A DNA stretch of 59,927 nucleotides from assembly GCA_949841465.1 (NCBI GenBank), contig CATKZW010000012.1:1-59927 (forward strand), read 5' to 3'. Made by a program: the position numbers and the translations under genes. Below, one piece after another: positions 33,058 to 59,927 of the stretch. The notes beneath the pieces were generated by a model that did no database searches, was not told the origin of the DNA, and saw only the letters and a program-made list of their open reading frames with translations. The DNA comes from an uncultured Oscillospiraceae bacterium. Lineage in GTDB: Bacteria > Bacillota > Clostridia > Oscillospirales > Oscillospiraceae. The first letter of the stretch is position 1. Every line of letters begins with the position of its first letter.

Positions 33058-33888
33058 CTACCCATCGTGTCCATCCAACAGCCATCTCAGCTCCAATTCC
33101 AGCTTTGCAAGCCGGATATCCGGCTTCACCTGTTCCCCGTGGAAATCGCTGCCGCCTGACTGATTGAGGTGGTACTTTTCTGCCAATTTGAGATAAAACC
33201 TCTGCTGTTCCGGCGTGTATTTAGGATAATAGCATTCAATGGCATCCAGACCCCAACCCTTGAGCCGCCCCACCAAAGCGTCCAGCTCATCGTCGGGCAG
33301 ACCCATTTGATAGGGGTGGGCCAAAGATACTTTCCCGCCCGCCGCCTTGATGGCCTCCACGCAGGTGCGGGCGTCCGCCTTGAACCGCTTTACATTCTGC
33401 CGGAACTCCTCCGTGTCCAGATAGCGGTCGAAGGCTTCCCGGTTGGAAGAGACGTACCCGCACCGTACCAGCACCTGGGCAAAGTGCGGCCGGGCAATTA
33501 CCTCGCCCCCCGCCAGCTCCTCCACCTCAGCCAGGTCGATGTCCACGCCCTTTCCCCTGAGAAAGTCCACAATTTTGTACTTTCGTTCATCCCGGCCTGC
33601 CCGGAATTTCTCGCACAGGCGGAACAGCTCCGTTTCTCCATCCTGAAATCCGTAGCCCAGTATGTGAAAATTGTGATGTTCCCTTGCGCTCAGCTCCACG
33701 CCCCGGATCACCCGGAGGCCCAGACTTTTTCCGGCGGCGATGGCCGCAGCTGTCCCGGCAATGGTATCGTGGTCCGTCACAGCCAGCACGTCAAGGCCCT
33801 GCCCTTGAGCCAGTTCCACCAGCTGCGCGGGCGTGTACTGCCCGTCGGACGCCGCAGTGTGGGTGTGTAGGTCGGCAAACAGCTTCAT
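33058..33888 (-). CDS. PHP-family phosphoesterase (3',5'-nucleoside bisphosphate phosphatase-like)
   Basis: A 276-residue metal-dependent PHP hydrolase: FADLHTHTAASDGQYTP, AVTDHDT, RGVELSAREH, RPHFAQVL and GGSDFHGE hold the expected His/Asp/Glu metal ligands. COG0613-type relatives remove the 3'-phosphate from 3',5'-bisphosphonucleotides or act as 5'-3' exonucleases. Its ATG overlaps the stop of the nucleotidyltransferase gene (ATGA), and it is the last gene of the flagellar island. That position suggests it recycles a 3'-phosphocytidine by-product of phosphoramidate transfer; this is inference. A general RNA-degradation role is the alternative. Confidence 0.82.
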   Translation of the reverse strand: MKLFADLHTHTAASDGQYTPAQLVELAQGQGLDVLAVTDHDTIAGTAAAIAAGKSLGLRVIRGVELSAREHHNFHILGYGFQDGETELFRLCEKFRAGRDERKYKIVDFLRGKGVDIDLAEVEELAGGEVIARPHFAQVLVRCGYVSSNREAFDRYLDTEEFRQNVKRFKADARTCVEAIKAAGGKVSLAHPYQMGLPDDELDALVGRLKGWGLDAIECYYPKYTPEQQRFYLKLAEKYHLNQSGGSDFHGEQVKPDIRLAKLELELRWLLDGHDG

Positions 33889-34628
33889 CAGGATAACTCC
33901 TTTATAAATTCCCGCTCATAGACCTTGATATCCTGCTCGGAGTCGCACTCCAGCCAAAGCGCGTCGGTGGAGATGGCCCGGATGGGGTATCCCAGCTGGA
34001 GCATCCCCTGCAATAGCGTGGTCATATCCAGCTTTTCCACCGGCTTGGGCAGAGGATGCCTGATGGTCTCCGTCACCCAGCCCCAGCTCTCCGGCGTGAA
34101 TCGCAGCAGGCCCATGAACTGCCCCTGTATGTCCGCGGGGCCGCCCGGCTTCAAGCCGATTTCCAGCAGTCCGCCGTTCCCGTCCGTGCGAAAGCTCTCC
34201 AAATCCTCCAGTGGGTCGTCCATGCGCAGCTTCCACAAATCCCAATAGCCGCTGTAGGACGTGACGGCCAATGGGGCGCCGCTCTCCCGCAGTCTGACGA
34301 TGGCCTCCGGCGCGAACACGATGTCGGAGTAACAGACCATGCAGGTTTCCCGCTCCAGCCATTCCCGGGCCATGGTCAGGGACCAGAACATATTCGTCCG
34401 CTCCCAATCCGGGTTGTGGAAACAGGTTACGCCCTCCACCTGGAACATGCCGCTCCGGTAGCCCGTTACGATGCCGATGTCCGAACGAGAAATTCCCGCC
34501 TTCTCCAGCGTGTCCAGGCAGCGGTCCAGCAAGGTCCGGCCCGCCAGCTCACACATGCACTTAGGCCGGTCCTTTGTCCGCGCTCCCAGGCGGCTCCCCC
34601 GCCCGGCGGCCAAAATAATGACTTTCAC
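33888..34628 (-). CDS. Nucleotidyltransferase, CTP:phosphoglutamine cytidylyltransferase-like (Cj1416 type)
   Basis: A 246-residue sugar-phosphate-type nucleotidyltransferase with the P-loop-like ILAAGRGSRLGARTKDRPK and a metal Asp in VCYSDIVFA. A GTG start at 34628 follows AGAGG and forms a GTGA overlap with the amidotransferase stop; the longer reading is an out-of-frame part of that gene. Alone it would be called a LicC-like phosphocholine cytidylyltransferase. Beside glutamine-kinase-like, amidotransferase and APS-kinase-like genes it fits Cj1416 of C. jejuni, which joins CMP to N-phosphoglutamine. No choline kinase or LicD gene is near, which argues against phosphocholine. Confidence 0.8.
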   Translation of the reverse strand: MKVIILAAGRGSRLGARTKDRPKCMCELAGRTLLDRCLDTLEKAGISRSDIGIVTGYRSGMFQVEGVTCFHNPDWERTNMFWSLTMAREWLERETCMVCYSDIVFAPEAIVRLRESGAPLAVTSYSGYWDLWKLRMDDPLEDLESFRTDGNGGLLEIGLKPGGPADIQGQFMGLLRFTPESWGWVTETIRHPLPKPVEKLDMTTLLQGMLQLGYPIRAISTDALWLECDSEQDIKVYEREFIKELS

Positions 34629-35221
34629 AGTGAAAACACCTCTTTGATTCGCGCAATGTCCTGCGGCCGGGCCGGGTGATACCGTTCCGGGTGCCACATG
34701 ATCCCTTTGATCCAGGGATAGTCCTGATGACTCACCGCTTCCAGCACGCCGTCGGTACTCCGGGCTTCCGGGACCAACGGGCTGCGGCACTCCGCCGCTC
34801 CCCAGCCGTGGAAGCTGTTGACGGTTTCGCCGCTGTCCAAAGCGTGCTCCACCCGGACGTGGCCGTCCACCCGCCGAAGGGGAGTGCCGAAATAGTCCAG
34901 CACCGTCTGCATCCCCCGGCACACCCCCAGCAGAGGGATGCGCCTGTCCACAGCGGTCTGTATCAGATGCCGTTCCACCTCATCCCGCTCCGGAGCGTCC
35001 CCGCCATAGGCAGCCAGGTCATTGCCGCCAGTGAGCAGGAGCCCCTCCACCGGCAGCGCCGCCAGCAGCTCTTGGACCGTGGGCAGATGGTTGGGCAGGA
35101 GCAGCGGGACAAATCGGCAGGCATCCGCCAGCCTGGCCCACTCCTGGGACAGCGCGTCCCGGCGCTCCCCGATTTGCTCCATGTATTCCACCCGCTGGGT
35201 GATTGCAATCAGCTTTTTCAT
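34625..35221 (-). CDS. Class I glutamine amidotransferase-like hydrolase (Cj1417 type)
   Basis: A 198-residue protein of the gamma-glutamyl hydrolase/PuuD group. The catalytic Cys101 is in PLLGVCRGMQTV, and His177 and Glu179 in IMWHPERYHP; the oxyanion region is LLLTGGNDLAAYGG. No synthase partner domain is nearby, so it is a free hydrolase. In Campylobacter, Cj1417 hydrolyses gamma-glutamyl-CDP-amidate to CDP-amidate plus glutamate, and that is the best reading here. The ATG at 35221 overlaps the stop of the kinase gene (ATGA). Confidence 0.82.
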   Translation of the reverse strand: MKKLIAITQRVEYMEQIGERRDALSQEWARLADACRFVPLLLPNHLPTVQELLAALPVEGLLLTGGNDLAAYGGDAPERDEVERHLIQTAVDRRIPLLGVCRGMQTVLDYFGTPLRRVDGHVRVEHALDSGETVNSFHGWGAAECRSPLVPEARSTDGVLEAVSHQDYPWIKGIMWHPERYHPARPQDIARIKEVFSL

Positions 35222-37530
35222 AGGATGGCCACCGTCCGATTCCTGCAGTCCACTTCCAGGCACCGCGCCGCCGCGTATCGGGCGAACTGCTTCTCCCCCA
35301 CGCCGATCACGGCCGGTATGCCGAACTCTGCCGCCCGGATGGCCATGTGGGAGTTGGCTCCGCCATAGGCGGTGATGAACCCGGCGATGGAGTGGGAGAA
35401 AATCCAGTCATAACCGGGGTCGGCCCCACGGATGAGCACCAGCTTCCCCTCCAGCGGCTTCTCCGAGGGCAGCAGGACTGTCTCCGCCGCGCAGCGGTTC
35501 TGAGTGATGAAGTTGGGGCTTCCGTCCGGCAGGAAGAAGCTGTAAATCTGCTCCTCCCCCCACAAAAGGGGCGGCAGGGTCAGACCGGCGGATTCCCGCT
35601 CCAGCGCCCGGCCCTCCCGGATGGTGTCCCTCAGCACCGTTTCCAAATCTCCCGCGCTGGAATAGGCCGTCGTCACCCGCTGGATGGTCACATGGGACAT
35701 GTCCTCCCGGCTCAGGCCGAAGTTCTCCCCCAGCTCCACCAGCAGCTCCAGTACATCCGACAGGGTGTGGGTAAACACAAATTTTGCGTACTCACGCCCC
35801 TCAATGGCATGGCGGATAAAGTGGAATAGAGATAGAACATCAACATTCAACTGATGTTCTTCCAGCATATGCTGGAAGAATTCGTACTGCTTCAGGGTGA
35901 GCCTGAACTCGCCCTGCGCCTCCTCCAGCCCGTCCTGAACCCGGGCAAAGTCGAAATACAATTCCCTCCCCTGGTCGTACCGGGGAGAGCAGATGTCATA
36001 GGTGCCGGGGCGCAGATGGCCGTATTTGGCCAGAAACCCGGCGGGAGACAACGCGGCCAAATCCTGGGTAATGTTTTTGCCCACCGTGGACAGGCCGTTC
36101 ATGTACAGGGAGCGCTCCTCCTCGGTGATGCCCCCCACCGCCACCATGGAGCGCAGCAGCTCCACCGCGATAAACCCGGCCCGGGCCAGGCCCGCGAAGG
36201 GCAATGTGCCGTACCGCTTGCAGTATTCCAGCAGCCAGTAAATCTTGTCCGCCGTCCCCAGGGAGCTGGTCATGATCTCCCGATGCTTTTCCTTCAGCGT
36301 CTCAATCTTCTGGGCGTCCTTCCGCCACAGCCCGTCCTCCCGGATGATGGAATTGGTCAGCTCCCGCAGAGACTGCACCAGGCAGCCCCGCTCCTGGGCC
36401 GTAAAGCCGCGTTTCTCCAGCACCTCTACCCGCTCCTGCAGGTCGAAGGTATAACAGGTGAAGGCAATCTCGAACTCCACCTTGTCGTGGTACTCCGGAT
36501 GGGTGCGCAGCCGGTCCAGGTAGTAGTCCACCAGCTTTTCCGCCAGCGGCTGGGGCAGTGTTTTGGGCAGGAACGAGTTGAAGCTCACCCGCGTGTCGAT
36601 ATACGGCAGACCGCAGAAGTCCACCATCAGCGGGAAGGAGCGCAGGTTGCGGTAGCCATAGTTGTCCCGCTGATAGGCCCATACGCCGCTGGTGATGATC
36701 TCCTTGTACAGGCTCAGCGCCAGCGCCCGGGGCCGAAGGCCGATCATCTCCGCCGGGTTCCAGTCGGGCATGACGCCGTAAATTGTCTTTTGCCCGCACA
36801 GATCCGGGTGGGGCAGCATGGACGTGCGAAGCTTGTCCCGGATTTGCCGAAGGCCGTTTGCCTGTGCCTCCAGATCCACCAGCGGTTTGGTGATGACCAA
36901 AGGCCGAACCTGGAGCAGGTACAGCGTTTCATTCGCGACTGCAAATTCCAGGTCCAGGGCGGGACGCTGGAACAGCCCCTCCAGCTCCCGGCACAGGGCA
37001 ATGACCCGGTCCAGAGGCGGCGGGACCGACGACATATCCGCGCCCTTGAAGTGGTAGAAGGTCTGCAGATGGGTACCCGTCCCGTCTGTCACTGAGCTGG
37101 TGGAGCCGGTGGTGTCGTCATAGTTCAGGATGTAATAATTCCCGCCGGTGTTGGGGTCCATGGTGAAGGCCACGCCGCACATATCCACGTCCGTCAAAAA
37201 GGGCTGGATGAACACCTGGTTGGCCGGGTCCGGGCCCATGGCTTCTGCCACCTGTGCCACAGCAGCCAAAATCGACTCTTCGCCCGACACATCGGCGATG
37301 GACAGAAATTTCCCCGCGTTGGAGCTCTCCGCGGTGTCCTCATTTTGTGCGCTGCTGCGTACGATGAGCCGCCGGCCCGACAGTCCGGCCTGCTCCAGAA
37401 GGGCCGAAATGCGGCGGGAATCGCTCCGGATTTCTCCGACGCTCAGACACACCTGGGGCAGGACCCGGGCGGATGTGAGCCGTCCGGCCAATGTGCGCAG
37501 TGTATCAGCTTTTGTGGTAAAGGTCAACAT
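35218..37530 (-). CDS. PEP-synthase-like kinase, probable L-glutamine kinase (Cj1418 type)
   Basis: A 770-residue protein with an ATP-grasp domain of the pyruvate phosphate dikinase N-terminal type (RSSAQNEDTAESSNAGKF near residue 57, RPALDLEFAV, LYLLQVRPLV). A long helical middle part follows. The C-terminal phosphohistidine domain has GGANSHMAIRAAEFGIPAV with His at about residue 728. It lacks the PEP/pyruvate-binding barrel of true PEP synthase and PPDK. This layout and size match Cj1418 of C. jejuni, which phosphorylates the amide nitrogen of glutamine using ATP. It starts 3 bases after the methyltransferase stop. Rifampicin phosphotransferase has a similar layout and is the main alternative, but context disfavours it. 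Confidence 0.82.
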   Translation of the reverse strand: MLTFTTKADTLRTLAGRLTSARVLPQVCLSVGEIRSDSRRISALLEQAGLSGRRLIVRSSAQNEDTAESSNAGKFLSIADVSGEESILAAVAQVAEAMGPDPANQVFIQPFLTDVDMCGVAFTMDPNTGGNYYILNYDDTTGSTSSVTDGTGTHLQTFYHFKGADMSSVPPPLDRVIALCRELEGLFQRPALDLEFAVANETLYLLQVRPLVITKPLVDLEAQANGLRQIRDKLRTSMLPHPDLCGQKTIYGVMPDWNPAEMIGLRPRALALSLYKEIITSGVWAYQRDNYGYRNLRSFPLMVDFCGLPYIDTRVSFNSFLPKTLPQPLAEKLVDYYLDRLRTHPEYHDKVEFEIAFTCYTFDLQERVEVLEKRGFTAQERGCLVQSLRELTNSIIREDGLWRKDAQKIETLKEKHREIMTSSLGTADKIYWLLEYCKRYGTLPFAGLARAGFIAVELLRSMVAVGGITEEERSLYMNGLSTVGKNITQDLAALSPAGFLAKYGHLRPGTYDICSPRYDQGRELYFDFARVQDGLEEAQGEFRLTLKQYEFFQHMLEEHQLNVDVLSLFHFIRHAIEGREYAKFVFTHTLSDVLELLVELGENFGLSREDMSHVTIQRVTTAYSSAGDLETVLRDTIREGRALERESAGLTLPPLLWGEEQIYSFFLPDGSPNFITQNRCAAETVLLPSEKPLEGKLVLIRGADPGYDWIFSHSIAGFITAYGGANSHMAIRAAEFGIPAVIGVGEKQFARYAAARCLEVDCRNRTVAIL

Positions 37531-37533
37531 AAA

Positions 37534-38286
37534 TCAGTGTTTTTTGCGTGCCATCCAGATTCGGGTTGTATAAGGCACTGTGATCGTCTCCTGGTGCAGT
37601 GCCTCCACCACCTGTCGAATCTCAGACACGATTTTCTCAAACACCTCCGGAGACTGGCGGTAGACGGTGCCATGGGACTTCCAGCCCTCAATAAAGTCTT
37701 CCGCGCGTATCTGATGCTTCACCTGTCCGGAAACAAACTCCACCGGCTCAAATAAGCCGGAGCTCTCGATGACCTCAGTTTGATCCTCCCGGCGGGTGCC
37801 GTAGCTGTAACCCGCAATATTCTTCTTGATCACATCCTCAATCTGCTTTTGAAGCGGATCGTCCAGGTTGCGGTGATTCCACATACAGGCAAACCATCCG
37901 CCGGGCTTCAAAATCCGGCTGGTTTCCGCCAGCGCCTGCCGACGGTCGCAGACGTTGAAAGAGGAGCCAAATGTCACCAGATCAAACTTCCCGGCCTCCA
38001 TTTTGGTGTCCTCGCCCACCCCCTCAAACCACTGCACATCGGGATACGTCTCTGTGCGCTTGATCCCGTTTGCCCGCATGGCGTCGTTTGGCTCCACGGC
38101 CCAGACGCGCAGGCCGAATTTTGCCAGCTCCAGGGTCAGGTGGGCCGCGCCCGCCCCCACGTCACACGCCGCGTCGCCAGGGTTGACGCCGGCCCGGGAC
38201 AGCATTTCGGCGATGGCATCCGGCGCGTATTCCGGACGGTGAAGATAGGCTTCGGCCAAATTTGTATAATCCCACTCGGTTTTCAT
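37534..38286 (-). CDS. Class I SAM-dependent methyltransferase in the phosphoramidate block
   Basis: A 250-residue methyltransferase with motif I CDVGAGAAHLTLELAKFG, the acidic end of strand 2 in VWAVEPNDAMR, and FDLVTFGSSFN. It resembles small-molecule methyltransferases of the Methyltransf_11 group. Its start overlaps the stop of the APS-kinase-like gene (ATGA), and the glutamine-kinase-like gene follows at once. In C. jejuni two methyltransferases (Cj1419, Cj1420) belong to the O-methyl phosphoramidate cluster, so O-methylation of the phosphoramidate is a natural hypothesis. A glycan methyltransferase is equally allowed by sequence. Confidence 0.82.
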   Translation of the reverse strand: MKTEWDYTNLAEAYLHRPEYAPDAIAEMLSRAGVNPGDAACDVGAGAAHLTLELAKFGLRVWAVEPNDAMRANGIKRTETYPDVQWFEGVGEDTKMEAGKFDLVTFGSSFNVCDRRQALAETSRILKPGGWFACMWNHRNLDDPLQKQIEDVIKKNIAGYSYGTRREDQTEVIESSGLFEPVEFVSGQVKHQIRAEDFIEGWKSHGTVYRQSPEVFEKIVSEIRQVVEALHQETITVPYTTRIWMARKKH

Positions 38287-38804
38287 AATAGCTTGTCCTC
38301 CTGATTTTTATCGATAATGCTCTGGGCCAAAAGCTCCGCCTGCTCCGCCGGCGTCCTCTGTCCGTCGTTTTCCAGGATCAGGTCCGGTGTTTTGGGCTCC
38401 TCCACCTGGAAGTGAACGCCTGCAACATCCTGCGTTCCCTTGCTGTACAGACCCTTTTGGTTCCGCCGGCGGAGGGTGTCCATAGATGCTTTCACGTAGA
38501 CCTCAAAATATCCCGGGATGTTCTCTCGGTTCCATTCCCGCACGCTGTCAAACATGGAGATCGTACAGCAGACCACGGTGATCCCCTGACCGGCCAGCAG
38601 CGCGCACAGCCGGGCGTTGCGCATGGCGCTCTTGCGGCGGTCCGCCTTGGTGAAGCCCAAATCATCCCCGAGCACCTGACGCAGCTCGTCGCCGTCCAAG
38701 AAAACCACGGCTTCGCCGGCGGCTTTCAATTTCTTGTACCAGAGGCGGCCGATGGTGGTTTTACCTGCGCCGGAGAGACCGGTGAGCCAGTAGACACGGT
38801 TCAT
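38283..38804 (-). CDS. APS-kinase-like protein, probable CDP-amidate 3'-kinase (Cj1415 type)
   Basis: A 173-residue P-loop kinase. Walker A is GLSGAGKTTIGR at residues 9-20; FLDGDELRQVLGDDLGFTKADRR is shortened here to its key parts DGDELR and GFTKADR, both typical of adenylylsulfate kinases. No ATP sulfurylase (CysD/CysN or Sat) or sulfate uptake gene is near, so classical PAPS synthesis is unlikely. Cj1415 of C. jejuni is an APS-kinase homologue that phosphorylates the 3'-OH of CDP-amidate, and the three downstream genes match the rest of that pathway. Its start overlaps the FkbM gene stop by 4 bases. Confidence 0.82.
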   Translation of the reverse strand: MNRVYWLTGLSGAGKTTIGRLWYKKLKAAGEAVVFLDGDELRQVLGDDLGFTKADRRKSAMRNARLCALLAGQGITVVCCTISMFDSVREWNRENIPGYFEVYVKASMDTLRRRNQKGLYSKGTQDVAGVHFQVEEPKTPDLILENDGQRTPAEQAELLAQSIIDKNQEDKLL

Positions 38805-39955
38805 GTATTCACCTCTTCTTCCGGGATTGCATATAAAACAGTCCCGTATAAACTGCTCTCATGATGACGCAAAAAGTAGCGATATGGGAGTTGTAGGCTA
38901 TGAATATACTCCGGGATCTCAAATATATCCTCAGGCTTATGGTAAACACAAATCGCCAGCTTTGGCTGGCACTTGCGTATTGTGCACTCTGCACCACGCA
39001 GCGCCGACAGTTCCGAACCTTCAATATCCATTTTGATAAAAGTGACGTCCGGCTCACACTGCGCAATCGAATCAATGGTTACGGACGGAACGCTGACACA
39101 ACCATCTTTCGCTTCTGACGTAACATGTGAGCCCGTCGTTTCCTCTGTATTTTCAAAATACAGGGATCCCACAGTATCGGAAAGGCACTTGGGAATCAGC
39201 TCTATCCGGCCTATCTGCAAGTCGTTGGCAAAGAATCGGGAAAATGCCCGTGTCTGCTGTTCACCCGGCTCAAAACAGACCGCTTTCTTCATCTGTCCAC
39301 CGGTACGCCTGAGAAATTCCCTCACCGTATCGCCTTCCCACGCTCCGCAGTCAAAGAATACTTCGTCCCTTTGGAGCCGGATGATATCTTCCGGAAAATA
39401 CTCGTTTCCAACACACACATCCTTCACATAATCCAAATTCCAGCTTAACCTGGCCTTTAACAGAGCCAGCAGTGTTTTTTGAGACAACTCGTCTTGAAAG
39501 AATCCGTTCACCCTTTCAATCCTGACAGCATTGCTTCTCAAAAAAGACCTGTATTCTTCTGCGGAAGGAACTGTCCCCAAAGAGATTGTCAGTGGGAAGG
39601 TGAAATAGAACACTTCACAATCCGGTGCGATCCTGCGTATATCTCGCTCAATTTCATCTCGATACGCAACAGATGCTATAATAACCTGGTAATATTGTAA
39701 TCCCCGCGTTACTTCCTTGAACTCTCGTACCTCTCCAATACCGGGAACAGTTTGCCCTGCCAAATTCTTGTCGCACACGGCGGCCACAGGGATGCGGTAA
39801 AACTGGCACCACCGCAAATATAGCCGCCCTATATAGCCGGCACCGTAAATTACAACCGGTTTGTTGATGTCATTTTGAAAGTGATGCAACTCTTCATAAT
39901 TTGTATCCAAATCCTCTTTCAATAACTCTTCTATATCCAATTTTAAGAAACTCAT
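38801..39955 (-). CDS. FkbM-family methyltransferase with N-terminal GAGY Rossmann-like domain
   Basis: A 384-residue two-part protein. Residues about 30-130 hold KPVVIYGAGYIGRLYLRW and AAVCDKN, a small nucleotide-binding-like domain shared with other island proteins. Residues about 180-380 are an FkbM methyltransferase: FFDCGAWEGDTVREF (motif I), VCFEPGEQQ and FIKMDIEGSELSALRGAE. FkbM enzymes usually O-methylate sugars or glycan ends. Overlaps both neighbours by 4 bases. Less GC-rich than the genes downstream, consistent with separate origin. Confidence 0.85.
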   Translation of the reverse strand: MSFLKLDIEELLKEDLDTNYEELHHFQNDINKPVVIYGAGYIGRLYLRWCQFYRIPVAAVCDKNLAGQTVPGIGEVREFKEVTRGLQYYQVIIASVAYRDEIERDIRRIAPDCEVFYFTFPLTISLGTVPSAEEYRSFLRSNAVRIERVNGFFQDELSQKTLLALLKARLSWNLDYVKDVCVGNEYFPEDIIRLQRDEVFFDCGAWEGDTVREFLRRTGGQMKKAVCFEPGEQQTRAFSRFFANDLQIGRIELIPKCLSDTVGSLYFENTEETTGSHVTSEAKDGCVSVPSVTIDSIAQCEPDVTFIKMDIEGSELSALRGAECTIRKCQPKLAICVYHKPEDIFEIPEYIHSLQLPYRYFLRHHESSLYGTVLYAIPEEEVNT

Positions 39956-40872
39956 ATTGCATTTCTCCCAAAGAAATCGTCATCTCCGCCTTGAACACGT
40001 TCAAACAGGTAAATATTATCCAGTTGATGGCGCTCTTTAGCCGCGGTGAGCTGATAGCCCAATTTCTGCATATATAGAATCAACTCATGGGGATAAATGT
40101 TAGTAAGAAATCCATGTTCAAACCGGGTGCGCATTGTCGGATATCCTTGGTTAAATATGTCTGCTGTTACAATACTAATAATCATCCTATGGGTAATTTT
40201 GCTTGTTTTTTGCAAAAGCCATTTCCAATCTCTGACCAGTTCAAGTGTGCCCGAAAGAATTGCGCAATCTATAGAAGAGCCTTCTATTGACGGATATTCA
40301 TATGCATCCAAATTGCAAACAATTGTCTCTTTTGAATATGGAATAAAATCAATCGGAATGTATTTGCAGCTTTCAGAAAGCGGTAAATATTTCTTTATCA
40401 GCATCGCCCCCGCAGCGAGGTCTAAAACTGAGTGAAATGTTTCCCATGGCAACATTTTTGAAATAATTTGGGTTCGCTCTTGAAAATATCCCTGGTCAAT
40501 CAAATCCTTGTTTTTCTTATAGAGTTCCGTCCAATGATTTTTATCGTAGTAAAAAGGCGGAACAACTTCATCGCCGTGCCAGTTCGGTGCCCAGAACAGA
40601 TTATGCCCCTCCTTGAAGCCCATGCCCGCAAGCTGGTTTGAAATCACAGCCCGGTGTGCTAGGCTGCCGATAAAAACCACAGTTTGGTTCACTTTTTCTG
40701 CCCGCAGGACTTCCGGCGCCCTTATTTCTTTGCCCATAAATGTCTTTCCGTGCCACATCGGATCATTATCCACAAAATAGTCCAAACATGAAAGAGCCTC
40801 ATCTCGCATATTGTAGCGGACTTCCCAGCCAACCGTAAACATTACATAAGTTTTCTTTGTCTCCATATTCAT
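39952..40872 (-). CDS. Putative methyltransferase-like protein of unknown function
   Basis: A 306-residue protein. The N-terminal half carries VNQTVVFIGSLAHRAVISNQ and FKEGHNLFWAPNW, comparable in layout to the GAGY-type domains of neighbouring proteins but without the motif. The second half has FHSVLDLAAGAMLIKKYLP and YIPIDFIPY, which look like a degenerate SAM-methyltransferase motif I and strand 2, then CAILSGTLELV and HRMIISIVTAD. I cannot name a family with certainty. Clearly AT-richer than the flanks. Start could be the first or third codon (MNMETKK). Confidence 0.65.
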   Translation of the reverse strand: MNMETKKTYVMFTVGWEVRYNMRDEALSCLDYFVDNDPMWHGKTFMGKEIRAPEVLRAEKVNQTVVFIGSLAHRAVISNQLAGMGFKEGHNLFWAPNWHGDEVVPPFYYDKNHWTELYKKNKDLIDQGYFQERTQIISKMLPWETFHSVLDLAAGAMLIKKYLPLSESCKYIPIDFIPYSKETIVCNLDAYEYPSIEGSSIDCAILSGTLELVRDWKWLLQKTSKITHRMIISIVTADIFNQGYPTMRTRFEHGFLTNIYPHELILYMQKLGYQLTAAKERHQLDNIYLFERVQGGDDDFFGRNAI

Positions 40873-42570
40873 TCAGCGCTCCTCCGTATCGAACTTTTCC
40901 GGCCAAAACACATCCGAAAACAGCTCGTGTCCGCTCTGAGCCATATATCCCGTCAGCAACTCCGCGATATAGTCATGGCTGACAGGGCGTTCATCTGGAA
41001 GCAAATATCCTTTCTTCATCGCCTCTTCCCCCGCGCGGTCGAGCGCGGCCTCAAACCGGAACGGATGCCGGTACAGCTCATCCAAAAACGCTTCGGAAAA
41101 CTCTGTATAGTGTGGAACATCACAGTCATATCCGAACGTGCGCTTGAAATTCTGAACCGCCAGGTTCAGACGAAAAATGTCATAGGAGGTCATCAGCGCG
41201 GAAAAATCTTTTCGGTCAACTGCCGTCGTGTCCCGCGACGAAATGGTTCCCTTTCCATTTCCAGAAGAGGGGAAATACACCGGAAAGCCGTTGGTTGTCG
41301 CCTCTAGTGTTTTCTCATCAAATGGGAGGTCCATCCATTTGAATACGGCTCGCATTGTCGCCTCTGTTTTCAGCTTCACGTCCTCAAAGCGAACAACTTT
41401 CACAGTCTTTCCCTGGTTGCATCTATTTTTTTCCAGCATGATCCCAAGATCGCAGGAAAGCCGGCCCACATACTGTTCAGGCCGCCCCGGATACCAGAGA
41501 CTTTCCGGTTTTTCCTCCAAAACAAAACGTTTCAGCCAGGAGAACCAGTGCTGGATCGGCTCGCGGACAATAAACCAGTACTCCAAGCGGTCAAAGTCCC
41601 CTGGCGTCAATAGTGCATCCATCTCGCACATATCATAATTTTCCTTGTGCCGCATAAAAAACATCCAATAAGTCTGGCTTGGGCAGCATCTCCTGCCCGT
41701 ACTGTTGGCGTAGGCGGCAAAAATTGCTTTCATCAATACCGCGAAGGAGACGCGGCCGCGGTCAAAAAGCTCCGCACTCAGCGCAGAGACAAATTTTGCC
41801 GAATCAATATATACGCGCTCCTCCGGCTGTCCGTCTTCATTCAAGAAAAATCGGGAAGCAAGCCGGGATATCATTGGGAAATAGGCCTCATCCGGAACCT
41901 GCGAGACAAAATATGGCGACATCTGGCTGGCGGTTTCCAGCACTAGTTCCTTCCCCTCCAGATATTGAAGCCGTTCCAAATAAATGTCTTTCAGCGGAAC
42001 CAAATTGCCCAGCATGGCAATGTTGATGACATTGGGGTGTCCATCCATCAAGGTCCCGAAGAAAGCGCTTCCGCTATTGGACATATGATTAAAGACCACC
42101 ATATTTCTGAGGTTCTCCACCCGAAATCCATCTTCCTGCGGCGTTTGTCCCTGTTCAAACAGGTCCAAGCCACAGTCCAGCAAAAATAAGTAACGGACAG
42201 GATGGAATCCGGAGCATTCGCTGAGAAGTCCCCGCTCCTTCAGCCGCCGGTTCATCACCGCCCGCGGCGCGTCTTTCCCTCCGCCGCTGGCCACCGCCGC
42301 AAAATAAATGGCATCAGGATATTTTTCTGCTGCGTCATCCAAAGCTAAGACAGGAATTGTTCTCCCGGCATTCGTAACCATAGTACCCTGTTTTGCCGGG
42401 TCGTCGTCACAAAAGCAGATGGGACCTACGCCAAACAGGGAAAATATCCGCAAGGAAGCCTCCCCCCAATAGCCTGCCCCGTATATAACCAGGCCGTTTG
42501 CTTGAACCCGCTCTACAATATCGTAAATGCTCCGGTAAAACTTTGTAACGCCGGAAGTTAAAATTTCCAT
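40873..42570 (-). CDS. Sulfotransferase-fold protein with N-terminal GAGY domain
   Basis: A 565-residue two-part protein. Residues 27-65 (LVIYGAGYWGEASLRIFSLF, ICFCDDDPAKQG) form the shared N-terminal domain. From about residue 157, VVFNHMSNSGSAFFGTLMDG resembles a sulfotransferase phosphate-binding loop, and FIVREPIQHWFSW (REPIQ at 336-340) the 3'-phosphate-binding segment. Sulfotransferase folds bind 3'-phosphonucleotide donors, so it may use either PAPS or the 3'-phospho-CDP-amidate expected here. The ATG at 42570 has an AGGAG site; a GTG 18 bases upstream is less likely. No PAPS synthesis genes are nearby. Confidence 0.72.
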   Translation of the reverse strand: MEILTSGVTKFYRSIYDIVERVQANGLVIYGAGYWGEASLRIFSLFGVGPICFCDDDPAKQGTMVTNAGRTIPVLALDDAAEKYPDAIYFAAVASGGGKDAPRAVMNRRLKERGLLSECSGFHPVRYLFLLDCGLDLFEQGQTPQEDGFRVENLRNMVVFNHMSNSGSAFFGTLMDGHPNVINIAMLGNLVPLKDIYLERLQYLEGKELVLETASQMSPYFVSQVPDEAYFPMISRLASRFFLNEDGQPEERVYIDSAKFVSALSAELFDRGRVSFAVLMKAIFAAYANSTGRRCCPSQTYWMFFMRHKENYDMCEMDALLTPGDFDRLEYWFIVREPIQHWFSWLKRFVLEEKPESLWYPGRPEQYVGRLSCDLGIMLEKNRCNQGKTVKVVRFEDVKLKTEATMRAVFKWMDLPFDEKTLEATTNGFPVYFPSSGNGKGTISSRDTTAVDRKDFSALMTSYDIFRLNLAVQNFKRTFGYDCDVPHYTEFSEAFLDELYRHPFRFEAALDRAGEEAMKKGYLLPDERPVSHDYIAELLTGYMAQSGHELFSDVFWPEKFDTEER

Positions 42571-42584
42571 GCCGGACCCTCTCC

Positions 42585-43586
42585 TCACTTTTCAAAATCA
42601 AGCTTGCGCACTTTGGAATACCACCCAAACAGCCGGGGGCACAGGCGAATCAGGCAGAGCCGAAGCCTCGTGGTGGGACTCCAACGCTTGTCCTGCATTA
42701 AAATCGGAAAATTTTCACGTATTACCCGATAATGATAGTCAATCACTTCTCTATGCGCATGGTTTTTCTTCAGCTGATCTATGTGCTGTGCGGAGACATA
42801 GCAGCAACGTTTCCTGTTCAGCGCAGCCAATTCCTCTTCGCCGCGGCAAAGGAAGTATTGAGTTTTTTCCTCCCAGGCACAGATCATATCCATGCAGTTT
42901 TCTGACGCGGTATCCGCCAGCGAGGTGCTGCCGCCGTGGATGACCCAGTAGTACAGCACATTGGGAATTAGTACAATTTTTTTTGCGGGGTAGATTACCT
43001 GATAGCTGGTAAATATATCCTCAAAAGCATGCGTTTCATCAAACCGGATGCCGTCCCACCGTTCCCGACGGAAAATTTTATTCCAGATAATCGAACTCGG
43101 TGTATACATTCCAACAAAAGATACCTGCATACGGCTCAATTCCCGCCCATTTACACATACTTTCCTGTCGATTGGAACATATGCCTTGGAAATGGCATCT
43201 GTGACACGGGCATAACAGCACTGGACAATATCCGCGTCCTCCCGGCGTAGCGTCTCCACCATTATTTCCACAAAACGGCGATCCACATAGTCATCGCTGT
43301 CTACAAACATTAAATAGCTGCCTTGGGCGGCGCTCAATCCGCTGTTTCGTGCCCTTCCAGCCCCGCAATGCCGGTTCAGGATGACCCTGACTCTGGAATC
43401 TCGTTTGGCAATAGACTCTAAGTATTCCGCACTGCCGTCTGTACTGCCGTCATCCACCACAATAATTTCAAGCTCTTTCCAGCTCTGGCAAAGCAGACTT
43501 TTCAGGCAGGTATCTAAAAATTGAACTCTGTTGTAAACGGGGATTATAATGCTGACCAAATCAGATTCTCCTGCTATGTTGGACAT
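42585..43586 (-). CDS. GT2-family glycosyltransferase
   Basis: A 333-residue GT-A glycosyltransferase. VSIIIPVYNRVQFLDTCLKS, VVDDGSTDGSAEYL and LMFVDSDDYVDRRF (the DxD metal site) mark the nucleotide-sugar-binding half; the C-terminal half is less conserved. No membrane helix, so it acts in the cytoplasm, as expected for flagellin glycosylation. It is a paralogue of the next gene upstream: both have similar GIRF/GLRF and YYWVIH segments. Donor and acceptor are unknown. Confidence 0.9.
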   Translation of the reverse strand: MSNIAGESDLVSIIIPVYNRVQFLDTCLKSLLCQSWKELEIIVVDDGSTDGSAEYLESIAKRDSRVRVILNRHCGAGRARNSGLSAAQGSYLMFVDSDDYVDRRFVEIMVETLRREDADIVQCCYARVTDAISKAYVPIDRKVCVNGRELSRMQVSFVGMYTPSSIIWNKIFRRERWDGIRFDETHAFEDIFTSYQVIYPAKKIVLIPNVLYYWVIHGGSTSLADTASENCMDMICAWEEKTQYFLCRGEEELAALNRKRCCYVSAQHIDQLKKNHAHREVIDYHYRVIRENFPILMQDKRWSPTTRLRLCLIRLCPRLFGWYSKVRKLDFEK

Positions 43587-45914: not shown

Positions 45915-46021
45915 AAAAAATTCCCTCCTCGTGTCCTTGATATACTGGTCGCTTCATGGCTGCCAGCCAAAAACGGTGAAGCAACCGCTTCGATAACAGA
46001 ATTACGCGGCGCCGTGCGACT

Positions 46022-52836: not shown

Positions 52837-53681
52837 TGCCCTTCCAGCTCCTTCCTCGCCTGGAGATAGTGCGCCTCCTCCGGCCACTTGTAGTGCCACA
52901 GGACCAGGTTTTCAAACAGGCTGCACCCCTTCCCCTTCACCGTGTTGGCAATCAGCGCCGTGGGGCGCTCTTTTTCTGCCCAGGCGTTTGCCAGGGCGGC
53001 GTGGATGGCCCTGTGGTCGTGGCCGTCCAGCTCCACGGCGTTCCAGCCGAAGGCCTGGAACTTCACCGCCATATCGCCCATGTTCAGCACGTCCTGGTCC
53101 GAGCCGTAGGACTGAAGCCGGTTGCGGTCCACGACGGCGATCAGGTTGGACAGCCCGAACCGGACGGCGAACATGGCGCTCTCCCAGACGGAGCCCTCGT
53201 TGCACTCCCCGTCGCCCAGCAGGACGCAGACCCTGCCCGCTCCGCCCCGGATGCGCTTGGCCTGGGCCAAACCGCACCCAAGCCCCAGGCCGTGGCCCAG
53301 CGAACCGGAGGATGCCGCCACGCCCGGCAGCCCGCCCCGCTTCGGGTGGACGCCCAGATAGCTGCCCGAGGTGTTGAACTCGGACAGCCGCTCCCTGGGG
53401 AAGTACCCCACATTGGCCAGCGCCGCATACCACGCGCTGGCGCCGTGTCCCTTGCTGAGCAGGAAGGTATTCTCATCCGGGTCCTGGGGATGAAGCGCCT
53501 CCCGCCCCAGAAAGCCGCCGTACAGCACGGCCAGCACATCGGCGCAGGAAAACGACGTGCCGATAAACCCGGCCTTCTTTCGATAGGTCATCTCCAGCAC
53601 GTCCAGGCGGATCGCCTTGGACAGGCTGCGGTAATATTCCAGCTGCCGGCCGTCACAGCTCCGCGCTGCAGGCTTGGACAT
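52833..53681 (-). CDS. Transketolase-like protein, N-terminal (ThDP-binding) subunit
   Basis: A 282-residue protein with the ThDP/metal motif LLGDGECNEGSVWESAMF, the conserved LSKGHGASAWYAALA and SGSLGHGLGLGCGLA. Its stop overlaps the C-subunit start by 4 bases, and its own start lies 29 bases inside the end of rfbG, so all three genes are tightly coupled. Split transketolases occur in both pentose metabolism and sugar-modification clusters; the neighbours point to the latter. Confidence 0.9.
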   Translation of the reverse strand: MSKPAARSCDGRQLEYYRSLSKAIRLDVLEMTYRKKAGFIGTSFSCADVLAVLYGGFLGREALHPQDPDENTFLLSKGHGASAWYAALANVGYFPRERLSEFNTSGSYLGVHPKRGGLPGVAASSGSLGHGLGLGCGLAQAKRIRGGAGRVCVLLGDGECNEGSVWESAMFAVRFGLSNLIAVVDRNRLQSYGSDQDVLNMGDMAVKFQAFGWNAVELDGHDHRAIHAALANAWAEKERPTALIANTVKGKGCSLFENLVLWHYKWPEEAHYLQARKELEGQ

Positions 53682-54699
53682 ATCGCTCCAGCTCCTCTCG
53701 CATCAAATCGTCCGTCCGTTCTCCCCCGCGCTCCCGGCGGCAGAACTCCAGCGTCCGCGCCAACCCCTCCTCCAGGGGCACCCGGACCCGCCAGCCCAGC
53801 TCGGCCGCGCTTTTCTCCGCGTTCAGGCACAGGGTTTTGGCCTCCGCAAAAGCGGGGGTATCGCCGAAAACGGCGGCCCCGGACAGCAGCTCTACAATCC
53901 GACCCACCGTGACGCACTGGTCCAGGCTCGGCCCGAAATTCCAGCCCTCCACCCGCTCCGGCGTCCGCGCCAGCAGCTCCTCCGCCAGCCGCAGGTAGCC
54001 CTCCAGCAGGCACAGCACATACTGCCACGGCCGCACCGCGCCGGGATTGCGGATGGGCTGGGGCTGATTCCGCAGCAGCCCGTCAATCAGCCCCGGAATC
54101 AGCCGGTCGTAATGGTAATCCCCGCCGCCGTAGACGTTGCTCCCCCGGGCGGCGGCAAGCCCCACGCCGTGGGGCAGGAAGTAGGAGGCCCCGTAGGCCG
54201 CCGCTGCCTGCTCCTGGCAGACCTTGCTGGCGGAATAGGGCTCCGTCCCGCCCAGAGGATCATCCTCCTGAAAGGGCCTGCCCGTCTCCAGGTTCCGGTA
54301 CACCTTGTCGCTGGTGACCACCACCACCGCCCGCAGGTCGGGGCAGGTCCGGAGGGCCTCCAGCAGGCGGACGGCGCCCATCACGTTGCTCCGGAAGGTC
54401 TCCAGCGGCCGCTCATAGGCCCGGCCCACCAGCGCCTGGGCCGCCAGGTGGAACACCACCTCCGGCTTGAACCCAGCCACTGCCGCCTCCAGGCCGTCCG
54501 CCGAGGCCAGGTCCATGGTCAGGGATTTGGCCCGCGGGGAGAGCTTCAATTTTTCGTAAGCGCTGAACCCGTCCGGGGCCAGGGAAATCCCCAGGGTTTC
54601 CGCCCCCATCAGGTCCAGCCATTTGATCAGCCAGCTGCCCTTGAACCCGGTGTGCCCCGTCACCAGCACCCGCCGGTTCTGCCACAGACTCGGATTCAT
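53653..54699 (-). CDS. rfbG: CDP-glucose 4,6-dehydratase
   Basis: A 348-residue extended SDR that turns CDP-glucose into CDP-4-keto-6-deoxyglucose. The start NRRVLVTGHTGFKGSWLIKW is highly characteristic of RfbG; VFHLAAQALVGRAYERP, VVTSDKVYRN, EPYSASKVCQEQ and AARGSNVYGGGDYHYDRLIP follow. ATG at 54699 with GGAGG eight bases upstream. It works after RfbF, encoded two genes upstream. No RfbH 3-dehydrase is present, so the pathway does not go to the usual 3,6-dideoxyhexoses. Confidence 0.93.
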   Translation of the reverse strand: MNPSLWQNRRVLVTGHTGFKGSWLIKWLDLMGAETLGISLAPDGFSAYEKLKLSPRAKSLTMDLASADGLEAAVAGFKPEVVFHLAAQALVGRAYERPLETFRSNVMGAVRLLEALRTCPDLRAVVVVTSDKVYRNLETGRPFQEDDPLGGTEPYSASKVCQEQAAAAYGASYFLPHGVGLAAARGSNVYGGGDYHYDRLIPGLIDGLLRNQPQPIRNPGAVRPWQYVLCLLEGYLRLAEELLARTPERVEGWNFGPSLDQCVTVGRIVELLSGAAVFGDTPAFAEAKTLCLNAEKSAAELGWRVRVPLEEGLARTLEFCRRERGGERTDDLMREELERYVQACSAEL

Positions 54700-55550
54700 G
54701 GCCGCGCCTCCATTTCCCGGCGCAAAGCGGAGATCTCCTCCGTGATGCCCTCCGCCAGGGAGATTTGGGGCGTCCAGCCAAAGCTCCGCAGCTTGGACAC
54801 GTCCGCCCACACGCCGGCGGGCTGATTTGCGCACTCCGCCGCGCTCCGAAACACCACCTGTCCCGGTCCGCCGATCTGCCGCCACACCTCGTCCGCAATC
54901 TCCCCGATGGTGGTCTGACGGCCGCCGGCGATGTTTACCGCCGACACGCCCTCCTGCTCCAGGCAGCAGCGCAGGGCCCGGGCTAAATCGGACGCATGGA
55001 CATAATCCCGGACGAAGGAATTACAGGAGCAGGTCACCGTCTCCCCCCGCAGCAGACCGTTGATCAGGGAGGGCATCAGCCGGGCGGGCTTTTCCCCCGC
55101 GCCGTAGACGAAGAAGATACGGCACCAGGCAAAGCTCCCGCCCCGTATCCGGCTGTTCTCCAGCAGGGCGCGGCCCAGGCTCTCCTTGCAGACGGCGTAG
55201 AGGGATTGCGGGGCCAGGGGGCTGTCCTCCCTCAGGGGCCGGTCCGTCCGGGCATACTCCTGCTCCGTGCCCACAAACACCGCCCGCTGCCCGCCGCAGC
55301 CGTAGAACGCCCGGTACAGCTCAATGCTCTTTTGCAGGAAGATCAGGTTTTTCTCCGAATCGGAATACCCTGCTCCGGTGACCCAGGCCAGGTGCACCAG
55401 AAGGTCGGGCCGTACCCGCGCCATATAGTCGTCCCAGTCCTCGGTCAACACGTCCCCGGAATAGGGCAGCCACTGATAGCGGCCCTCCAGCTCCTTTCGC
55501 AGATAGCCGCCGATAAACCCGCCCGCGCCGGTTACCAGCACCCGTTTCAT
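54696..55550 (-). CDS. NAD-dependent epimerase/reductase (extended SDR), paralogue 3
   Basis: A 284-residue extended SDR with KRVLVTGAGGFIGGYLRK, LLVHLAWVTGAGYSD, AVFVGTEQEYARTDRP (SSxEY replaced by TEQEY), QSLYAVCKESLGRAL and FVRDYVHASDLARAL. The shared HLAW and DY..A.DLA segments relate it to the two SDRs at 50057 and 51008. Lying between the SPASM radical SAM and rfbG genes, coupled to both by ATGA overlaps, it probably acts on a CDP-sugar. Function beyond SDR is undetermined. Confidence 0.87.
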   Translation of the reverse strand: MKRVLVTGAGGFIGGYLRKELEGRYQWLPYSGDVLTEDWDDYMARVRPDLLVHLAWVTGAGYSDSEKNLIFLQKSIELYRAFYGCGGQRAVFVGTEQEYARTDRPLREDSPLAPQSLYAVCKESLGRALLENSRIRGGSFAWCRIFFVYGAGEKPARLMPSLINGLLRGETVTCSCNSFVRDYVHASDLARALRCCLEQEGVSAVNIAGGRQTTIGEIADEVWRQIGGPGQVVFRSAAECANQPAGVWADVSKLRSFGWTPQISLAEGITEEISALRREMEARP

Positions 55551-56653: not shown

Positions 56654-56669
56654 GTTGCCAGCTCCTCCG

Positions 56670-57452
56670 TCAGGTTTCGTCCCACCGCTTCCACGGCGCT
56701 TTTCCGATGCTCCACAGGTGCTCCAATATGCCCCGGTCCCGCTGGGTGTCCATGCACTGCCAGAACCCGGAGTGCTTGTAGACCCCCAGCTTCCCGTCCC
56801 GGGCCAATGCCTCCAGGGGCCTGCGCTCCAGGACGCAGCTTTCCTCCACACTTAAATAGCTGAAAACCTCCGGCTCCATCACCATGAAGCCGCCGTTGAT
56901 CCAGCCGCCGTCCTCCCTGGCCTTCTCCCGGAAGCCGGTGACGGCCTGCCCCTTGATGTCCAGCACGCCGAAGCGCCCGCCGGGCTGGATGCCGGTGAGC
57001 GTCACCGCCTTGCCGGAGGCGCGGTGCTGCGCCAGCAGGGCGTCCAAGTCCACATTGCTGACGCCGTCCCCGTAGGTGAGCAGGAACGGCTCGCCTCCGA
57101 TGTATTGCTCCACCCGCTTTACCCGCGCACCGGTCTGGGCGTTCAGCCCGGTGTCCACCACCGTCACCCGCCAGGGCTCCGCCACGTTTTCGTGGATCGT
57201 CATGCGGTTCTCCGCGGAGAAATCGAAGGTCACGTCGGAGCGGTGCAGATAGTAGTCTGCGAAATACTCCTTGATGACATGGCCCTTGTAGCCGCAGCAG
57301 ATGATGAAGTCGTGAAACCCATAGCTGGAATAATACTTCATGATATGCCACAGGATGGGCTGGTCGCCGATCTCAATCATGGGCTTGGGCTTTAAATAGC
57401 TCTCCTCGCTGATGCGGGTGCCCAGGCCGCCGGCCAGGATGACTGCCTTCAT
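56670..57452 (-). CDS. rfbF: Glucose-1-phosphate cytidylyltransferase
   Basis: A 260-residue nucleotidyltransferase making CDP-glucose from CTP and glucose 1-phosphate. KAVILAGGLGTRISEESYL, the KPKPMIEIGDQPILWHIMKYY segment (given here as KPKPM and GDQPILWHIM) and WINGGFMVMEPEVF are RfbF signatures. ATG at 57452 overlaps the stop of the transferase gene (ATGA) and has a GGGAGGA site; the longer reading is out-of-frame coding of that gene. Supplies RfbG. Confidence 0.94.
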   Translation of the reverse strand: MKAVILAGGLGTRISEESYLKPKPMIEIGDQPILWHIMKYYSSYGFHDFIICCGYKGHVIKEYFADYYLHRSDVTFDFSAENRMTIHENVAEPWRVTVVDTGLNAQTGARVKRVEQYIGGEPFLLTYGDGVSNVDLDALLAQHRASGKAVTLTGIQPGGRFGVLDIKGQAVTGFREKAREDGGWINGGFMVMEPEVFSYLSVEESCVLERRPLEALARDGKLGVYKHSGFWQCMDTQRDRGILEHLWSIGKAPWKRWDET

Positions 57453-59596: not shown

Positions 59597-59677
59597 GGCA
59601 GCTACGCTCCTTTTCAGTTGAGGTACATGGAAAAAACGCCGGAACCAGCGGCTTTTCCGCAAACCTCCACAGCATGG

Positions 59678-59754: not shown

Positions 59755-59927
59755 TTACTGGAGGAGCTGCAGCACGCCCTGGGGCACCTGATTGGCCTGA
59801 GCCAGCATGGCCTGAGCGGACTGGATCAGGATGTTGTTCTTGGTGTAGGCCATCATTTCCTCGGCCACGTCCACGTCGCGGATGGTGGACTCGGCGTCCT
59901 GGATGTTCTCGGTCATCACGGACAGGT
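59755..59927 (-). CDS. Flagellin, C-terminal fragment (gene runs off right edge)
   Basis: The minus strand ends with an open frame of 57 codons to TAA at 59755-59757. The residues include [45 protein letters not shown] and the end [10 protein letters not shown]. This is the conserved C-terminal D0 helix of bacterial flagellin, which packs in the filament core. The rest of the gene and its promoter lie outside the window. Flagellins are exported unfolded after cytoplasmic glycosylation, which explains the cytoplasmic transferases downstream. Confidence 0.95.

Follow-up and report, generated by a model that had tools for sequence, protein, structure and literature searches.

A putative CDP-amidate operon beside flagellin in an uncultured Oscillospiraceae bacterium, with related cassettes in several phyla

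Introduction

What is made by an operon that places a glutamine-kinase-type protein, an amidotransferase-fold hydrolase, a nucleotidyltransferase, a kinase resembling those of sulfate activation and a methyltransferase side by side, and which molecule receives the product? The question is raised by contig CATKZW010000012.1 of an uncultured Oscillospiraceae bacterium (assembly GCA_949841465.1), analysed over its whole length of 59,927 nucleotides (the window), which ends inside a flagellin gene. Five coupled minus-strand genes at 33888–38804 encode P0001, P0002, P0003, P0004 and P0005 (Table 1), and an initial annotation had likened them to the genes by which Campylobacter jejuni makes the O-methyl phosphoramidate (MeOPN) of its capsule. 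There, Cj1418 is an L-glutamine kinase, Cj1416 a cytidylyltransferase, Cj1417 a γ-glutamyl hydrolase and Cj1415 a CDP (cytidine diphosphate)-amidate kinase. Cj1415–Cj1418 are reported to be needed for MeOPN biosynthesis, with Cj1421 and Cj1422 as transferases onto the capsule (PMC3907429).

Judged from protein families, catalytic residues and recurrence, which favour the chemistry first proposed, the cassette very probably encodes a CDP-amidate pathway. We hold it likely that the operon makes 3′-phospho-CDP-amidate and that a phosphoramidate, probably methylated, is placed on a glycan of the flagellin encoded just upstream.

The operon and its predicted chemistry

The junctions between the five genes are ATGA or GTGA overlaps or gaps of at most 3 bases. 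Their positions, sizes and catalytic residues had been given correctly to the base in the initial annotation, and its description as one overlapping operon holds for these five genes but falls short in extent: the same tight spacing runs from an upstream glycosyltransferase gene (ending at 42585) through P0008, P0007 and P0006 to the five genes and on to a PHP-domain gene, so that the operon is longer than was stated.

The kinase, P0003 (770 aa), passes PRK05849, a curated profile whose model is titled ‘hypothetical protein’ and of which Cj1418 is presumably a member. Pfam finds in it the ATP-binding part of PPDK_N and a C-terminal PEP-utilizers phosphohistidine domain with nothing between, hence no pyruvate barrel. 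His728, within YGGANSHMAIR, is kept in all 83 rows having a residue at that position, in an alignment of 86 rows including P0003. Domains and conservation thus agree with the PEP (phosphoenolpyruvate)-synthase-like protein with a C-terminal histidine near 728 that had been described. The hydrolase, P0004, finds its best NCBIfam family in the γ-glutamyl-CDP-amidate hydrolases (NF045546), which P0004 and 56 of 60 homologues (57/57 scanned proteins) match at E ≤ 1e-10. Cys115, His191 and Glu193 of its 212-aa open reading frame (ORF) correspond, when counted from the ATG at 35221, to the Cys101/His177/Glu179 of the initial annotation; an alternative GTG start lies at 35263. Each of the three residues is kept in 61/61 aligned hydrolase rows, P0004 counted. 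P0005 belongs to a nucleotidyltransferase family (PF12804, with a match to structure 1jyk), and phosphoglutamine is its predicted substrate.

Could these be ordinary enzymes instead, namely a rifampicin-phosphotransferase-like kinase, a phosphocholine-activating enzyme and a sulfate-activation kinase with a true sulfotransferase? The domain order of P0003 does resemble that of rifampicin phosphotransferase, and its matches in the Protein Data Bank (PDB) are chains named PEP synthase; likewise, P0001 matches solved adenylyl-sulfate (APS) kinases, every NCBIfam model that it matches above 90 bits is one for APS kinase, and PRK05541, which it passes, is itself named adenylyl-sulfate kinase. Against this, P0003 reaches 38 bits where the rifampicin phosphotransferase family NF041857 demands 999, and P0001 misses the APS kinase equivalog TIGR00455 (115.9 bits, cut-off 138.7). 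No ATP sulfurylase of the Sat type (PF01747) was found in the host genome (92.87% complete), where a search for CysD gave one stretch only, at 21.7 bits against a cut-off of 396.6. As the host apparently lacks ATP sulfurylase, APS is an unlikely substrate of P0001. A kinase partnered with a hydrolase (73/77 loci, see below) is also out of keeping with this reading, which we regard as very improbable. Rifampicin inactivation, phosphocholine activation and synthesis of 3′-phosphoadenylyl sulfate (PAPS) were accordingly rejected on the curated cut-offs and the ATP-sulfurylase searches. Of the homologues that the initial annotation had named as speaking against its proposal, a rifampicin phosphotransferase and a true APS kinase are not those indicated by sequence comparison, and P0004 lies nearest to a CDP-amidate hydrolase.

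The same picture extends to relatives. Among 43 cassette genomes (the host, a congeneric genome termed G026, and 41 of the 80 genomes introduced below, hand-picked as clostridia-like and spirochaetes, many being incomplete metagenome bins), Sat never exceeds its cut-off (two weak matches) and CysD does so in nine (11 at E ≤ 1e-20), so that about three quarters of these genomes seem to lack the capacity to make APS. All 46 APS-kinase-like proteins scanned, P0001 and 45 of the 46 separate ones, match PRK05541; at the scan threshold all of them match TIGR00455 too, and the two families are not told apart by this count. At a site that is SPY in five solved APS kinases, P0001 reads ISMF; here, 57 cassette-type proteins have SMF (35), SLF (12), SIF or CIF (2), SPF (1) or another or unrecognisable sequence (7).

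In the scheme that we prefer, whose every substrate, product and target is predicted, P0003 would phosphorylate the amide of L-glutamine through phospho-His728, and P0005 would join the phosphoglutamine to CMP (cytidine monophosphate) from CTP (cytidine triphosphate). P0004 would then cut off glutamate by its Cys/His/Glu residues to give CDP-amidate, the 3′-OH of which would be phosphorylated by P0001 in the way that APS kinase phosphorylates APS. Finally, P0008 would recognise the 3′-phosphate, as sulfotransferases do in PAPS, and move the phosphoramidate to a sugar, while P0002 would methylate the phosphoramidate.

Recurrence of the cassette

In named genomes, at least 562 stretches encode a relative of the kinase (E ≤ 1e-3; one gene may account for several stretches). 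The 80 best were taken as named loci and the sample therefore leans towards the window's type; 77 were analysed, since a simple ORF caller found no kinase ORF in L039, L073 and L099. A gene was counted as present if any part of the locus gave a profile match at E < 1e-5; for the four core partners, a tblastn match at E < 1e-8 was accepted as well. Under these rules, the hydrolase is found in 73/77 loci, the cytidylyltransferase in 72/77, the APS-kinase-like gene in 65/77 and the methyltransferase in 56/77. The triad of kinase, hydrolase and cytidylyltransferase occurs in 71/77 loci, the triad with the APS-kinase-like gene in 62/77 and all five genes in 53/77, a co-occurrence that points to more than chance. 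These loci are mutually related and the counts are not independent; additionally, the cytidylyltransferase and methyltransferase families are broad, and some matches may be unrelated genes (71/77 and 54/77, respectively, lie within 6 kb).

Fusions join the same partners. Seven loci (L078, L086, L090, L101, L105, L108 and L109) encode kinase and APS-kinase-like domain within a single ORF and reading frame, and kinase and hydrolase share one ORF in L025 and L033. In the stretches covered around the latter two ORFs (L025:1381–4509, with a short flank, and L033:652–3687), no match to P0005 was seen, and free phosphoramidate might be what such a fused enzyme releases. The L033 record (9.5 kb, from human faeces) is labelled bacteriophage; its other ORFs look bacterial by eye. 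An apparent methyltransferase–kinase fusion in L100 was rejected, the two matches being in different frames, and a nucleotidyltransferase-like N-terminal extension on the kinases of L027 and L028, with weak support for L028 alone, was not counted as a fusion.

Other loci depart from the five-gene set. In L103 (Clostridium guangxiense), no partner out of the four was found in the 10 kb around the glutamine-kinase-type gene. L056, L065, L074 and L079 (Treponema, Spirochaetia, Treponema and Oscillospiraceae) combine the triad with a TagF-like gene and show no APS-kinase-like or methyltransferase match; they are likely a second version of the pathway. On an Agrobacterium vitis plasmid (L031:8914–14003), genes for a LysE-type exporter and for a CDP-alcohol phosphatidyltransferase come after the triad, and the phosphoramidate made there is perhaps a small molecule and not part of a glycan. 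On a Vibrio alfacsensis plasmid (L027:5472–14009), the triad, with the N-terminally extended kinase, lies between cysDN and a gene of the CDP-glycerol glycerophosphotransferase family.

A kinase above the cut-off occurs in 2/37 genomes of the genus and a kinase match at E ≤ 1e-30 in 3/394 genomes of an order sample, the host being counted in both; in a phylum sample, 2/398 match the kinase, the host alone above the cut-off. Titles of the best 80 loci include Oscillospiraceae, Lachnospiraceae, Treponema, Pseudomonas, Shewanella, Bacillus, Paenibacillus, Acidobacteria, Verrucomicrobia, Nitrospina and others, 14 plasmid records carry a kinase relative (Azospirillum, Vibrio, Cupriavidus, Agrobacterium and others), and viral contigs gave one partial relative. 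A quickly built tree of 84 kinase rows joins the window to G026 and to its nearest clostridial loci; it requires five label changes for Bacillota and five for Pseudomonadota, which is consistent with transfer without proving it. ‘Campylobacter-type in a clostridium’, as the locus was first called, undersells a cassette widespread across several phyla: the glutamine kinase looks like a widespread family whose partners recur, with members in commensal clostridia, spirochaetes, Pseudomonas, Acidobacteria and others.

P0008, a candidate transferase

The gene for P0008 lies three genes upstream of the five-gene set. The initial annotation left this candidate for the final step unmentioned. When the proteins of 88 stretches (the 80 named loci, five plasmid loci, two of G026 and the window) were clustered, the P0008 family was the most frequent after the five core genes, with 39 members in 35/88 stretches and a median of 599 residues; a P0008-type gene is present in 35/77 named loci by profile and in 32/80 by the single-linkage cluster alone. 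In an alignment of 38 of the 39 members (L102 left out), P0008 is 13–44% identical to the 37 others, and R342 of VREP and E402 of RFED are invariant in the 38 rows. The family profile built from these 38 matches, in the PDB, the CurM sulfotransferase (1e-14) and tyrosylprotein sulfotransferases (about 1e-13), mainly over profile positions 363–460 of 592. On this profile match P0008 is assigned to the sulfotransferase superfamily. Sulfotransferases bind a 3′-phosphonucleotide, and the match makes chemical sense because 3′-phospho-CDP-amidate would resemble PAPS in this respect. The proposal of a P0008-type transferase is new to our knowledge, and testable.

Co-occurrence agrees with such a role. 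In the 58 triad loci that are flanked on each side by 3 kb or more, sulfotransferase-like genes (the P0008 family and a second sulfotransferase-like cluster) are found in 30/52 loci with the APS-kinase-like gene and in 0/6 without it, the latter group being small; the figures are 43/52 and 0/6 for the methyltransferase, and 12/52 and 4/6 for TagF-like genes. Over all 71 triad loci, with and without the APS-kinase-like gene, sulfotransferase-like genes are present in 36/62 and 1/9 and the methyltransferase in 53/62 and 1/9, the exceptions (L042 with a P0008-type gene and L037 with a methyltransferase) being on short contigs.

TagF-like genes bring in another alternative, in which phosphoglutamine or another phospho-amino acid is activated and moved to flagellin. 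In the route proposed for the type A glycan of Clostridioides difficile, the LicC-like CD0242 makes CDP-threonine and the TagF-like CD0244 transfers phosphothreonine to N-acetylglucosamine on FliC (PMC10714395); Cj1416 is reported to be promiscuous with manganese (PMC12275187), and TagF-like genes, so named from one annotation and reading by eye, lie near 16/71 triad loci. For the window, we judge this route improbable: the TagF-like family profile has no match there, an APS-kinase-like step would be useless in such a scheme, and the hydrolase homologue stands beside the kinase in nearly all analysed loci with its catalytic residues intact.

The flagellin neighbourhood and the probable target

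Transfer to flagellin is suggested by the surroundings of the operon. The end of the window (59755–59925, minus strand) encodes a flagellin C-terminus that agrees in 56/56 residues with the flagellin adjoining this cassette in G026, which bears out the ‘flagellin island’ of the initial annotation, and surface-sugar genes are contiguous with flagellin, as in a flagellar glycosylation island. In G026, flagellin is followed in turn by FliB lysine methylase (167.6 bits against a cut-off of 85), a pair of P0008-family members, the cassette, the PHP gene, a P0008 relative and a second flagellin piece. Flagellin lies beside the cassette in the window, in G026 and in 7/8 of the closest named loci (L034–L041). 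Additionally, five gammaproteobacterial cassettes (L054, L062, L064, L066 and L088) each have a flagellin-family gene on either side within the same contig; these flgL-like and fliC-like genes were called by eye and length, and their positions are locus coordinates laid over genome matches. In all, 17/80 named loci have a flagellin or flgL-like gene within flanks of up to 10 kb.

At the genome level, flagellin-family genes are found in 73/80 cassette hosts (39/40 and 34/40), as compared with 53/295 genomes of the window's order, an unmatched control since the 80 span several phyla. For the L034–L041 genomes alone (8/8 against 53/295), Fisher's test gives p 1.8e-6, with kinship ignored and membership of the order assumed for all eight. 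The flagellar target put forward earlier thus gains support from cassettes lying beside flagellin or between flgL- and fliC-like genes, and in this genome a flagellin glycan is most likely the target.

Several findings weigh against parts of this interpretation. As to the pathway, P0004 scores 109.5 bits, 140 under the NF045546 cut-off of 250; the APS-kinase-like gene is missing in 12/77 loci and the methyltransferase in 21/77, partly through contig ends; and the link to Campylobacter would follow from one curated family name and from presumed synteny and membership. As to the transferase, P0008 alone matches Sulfotransfer_3 only at E 0.011, and this domain is matched at E ≤ 0.01 by only 18/38 family members (Sulfotransfer_1 by four). 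No sulfotransferase-like gene is present in 26/62 triad loci with an APS-kinase-like gene, the P0008-type gene of L042 stands beside a triad without the APS-kinase-like gene (its contig stops 105 bases further on), and L091, flanked on each side by nearly 10 kb, combines a P0008-type gene with kinase and hydrolase in a locus without cytidylyltransferase, APS-kinase-like gene or methyltransferase. As to the target, no flagellin is seen in the roughly 10 kb around 63/80 named loci, many of whose contigs are short, and 7/80 cassette genomes have none at all, which suggests that other glycans are used too or instead.

The last two counts also favour the view that the same CDP-amidate pathway tags a capsule, exopolysaccharide or wall glycan, flagellin being near simply where surface-sugar islands gather. 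The C. jejuni tag is on the capsule (as reported in PMC3907429), and the Pseudohalocynthiibacter cassette L028 adjoins capsule-type genes. The cassettes beside flagellin in the window, G026 and 7/8 of the closest named loci, and the five gammaproteobacterial ones flanked by flgL- and fliC-like genes, argue the other way, and we consider a non-flagellin target unlikely for the window.

With a flagellin glycan thus preferred here, a wider proposal may be made, on which we stand evenly divided: phosphoramidate would be a common and overlooked flagellar decoration supplied by a mobile multi-phylum cassette, in which a branch of the sulfotransferases would have switched donor from PAPS to 3′-phospho-CDP-amidate, with TagF-type transferases acting where the 3′-kinase is missing.

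Other features of the window

The remaining genes of the operon and the island are listed in Table 1. The cluster of the PHP gene is found in 6/88 stretches, the window counted. At 51916–57959, the CDP-glucose dehydratase gene is accompanied by a split transketolase pair and by an ORF (56650–57351) that looks by eye like a glucose-1-phosphate cytidylyltransferase; the sugar serving as acceptor may be a branched CDP-deoxysugar. At 44640–47293 lie two radical SAM (S-adenosylmethionine) proteins whose nucleotide-binding-like N-terminal part looks by eye similar to that of P0008 and P0006; one of the two proteins is matched by the P0008-family profile at 4.7e-5.

Table 1. Features of the flagellin island in the window, listed from the flagellin end
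Feature	Position	Strand	Basis
Flagellin gene, 3′ end, cut by contig end	59755..59927	-	Translation read; 56 aa identical to G026 flagellin
Glycosyltransferase family 2 with long C-terminal part; first gene after flagellin	57449..59662	-	PF00535 E 4.9e-14; start codon uncertain
CDP-glucose 4,6-dehydratase (island sugar)	53653..54885	-	TIGR02622 335 bits, cut-off 278; ORF start uncertain
P0008, sulfotransferase-superfamily protein, candidate phosphoramidate transferase	40873..42588	-	Family profile against PDB sulfotransferases
P0007, methyltransferase-like by eye	39952..40872	-	No Pfam or NCBIfam match
P0006, FkbM-family methyltransferase	38801..39955	-	PF05050 E 7e-17; TIGR01444 above cut-off
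P0001, APS-kinase-like, candidate CDP-amidate 3′-kinase	38283..38804	-	PRK05541 179 bits, cut-off 127
P0002, class I SAM methyltransferase, candidate O-methylation enzyme	37534..38286	-	PF08241 E 1.6e-15; homologue in 56/77 loci
P0003, L-glutamine-kinase-type protein, phospho-His728	35218..37530	-	NF004508/PRK05849 937 bits, cut-off 501
P0004, class I amidotransferase fold, candidate γ-glutamyl-CDP-amidate hydrolase	34625..35221	-	NF045546 E 2.2e-31
P0005, LicC-like, candidate phosphoglutamine cytidylyltransferase	33888..34628	-	PF12804 E 1.9e-17; LicC structure 1jyk E 1.3e-6
PHP-domain phosphoesterase-like gene, operon end	33058..33888	-	PF02811 E 2.2e-12

Comparison with known systems

Published accounts place this chemistry mainly in Campylobacter. 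The glutamine kinase is presented as C. jejuni-specific in a 2022 review (PMC9561416) and the modification as identified only in Campylobacter in a 2019 review (PMC6429109); unmethylated phosphoramidate is reported on the lipopolysaccharide of Xanthomonas and Shewanella (PMC3907429; for Shewanella also PMC3210612). Among the matches listed in the open literature, no title or abstract opening describes the pathway in Bacillota or on flagellin. In the portions available, a paper on the flagellar island of Clostridium botulinum (PMC2674064) cites MeOPN work for another sugar only and names no phosphoramidate genes, and one on Legionella longbeachae (PMC11419355) has phosphoramidate as a comparison only. 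Phosphoramidate-related genes are carried by Borg elements according to a 2025 paper (PMC12660748), where a predicted phosphoglutamine cytidylyltransferase lies within a glycoconjugate region; these elements are archaeal, and a flagellin link goes unmentioned in the part of that paper available.

If the interpretation is true, phosphorus–nitrogen chemistry at the cell surface would be a general matter, beyond Campylobacter. It predicts a modification of flagellin of which no description was found and which can be checked by mass spectrometry, and P0008 offers a candidate for the final transferase. It would also mean that annotations such as ‘adenylyl-sulfate kinase’ and ‘sulfotransferase’ in islands of this kind may be unrelated to sulfate.

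The likeness to PAPS synthesis lies in a kinase of the APS kinase family and in sulfotransferase motifs, which would correspond to a 3′-phosphonucleotide donor and its transferase. In contrast to that system, no ATP sulfurylase was found here, P0001 falls under the curated APS kinase cut-off, and SMF or SLF replaces the SPY of the five solved enzymes in 47/57 members of the cassette family.

The genes CD0240–CD0244 for the type A glycan of C. difficile and PA1088–PA1091 of Pseudomonas aeruginosa are near flagellin. They resemble the present operon in that a CDP-activated phospho group is proposed for a flagellin sugar (PMC10714395). Theirs is phosphothreonine with a TagF-like transferase, whereas here a glutamine-kinase set is combined with a sulfotransferase-type gene.

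Closest is the MeOPN pathway of C. jejuni, in which the same four enzyme types occur side by side and the CDP-amidate hydrolase is the nearest curated family of P0004. The present system differs from it in its Gram-positive host, in a locus with flagellin rather than capsule, in a transferase candidate from the sulfotransferase superfamily and in the fusion, within other cassette loci, of the kinase to an APS-kinase-like domain or to the hydrolase.

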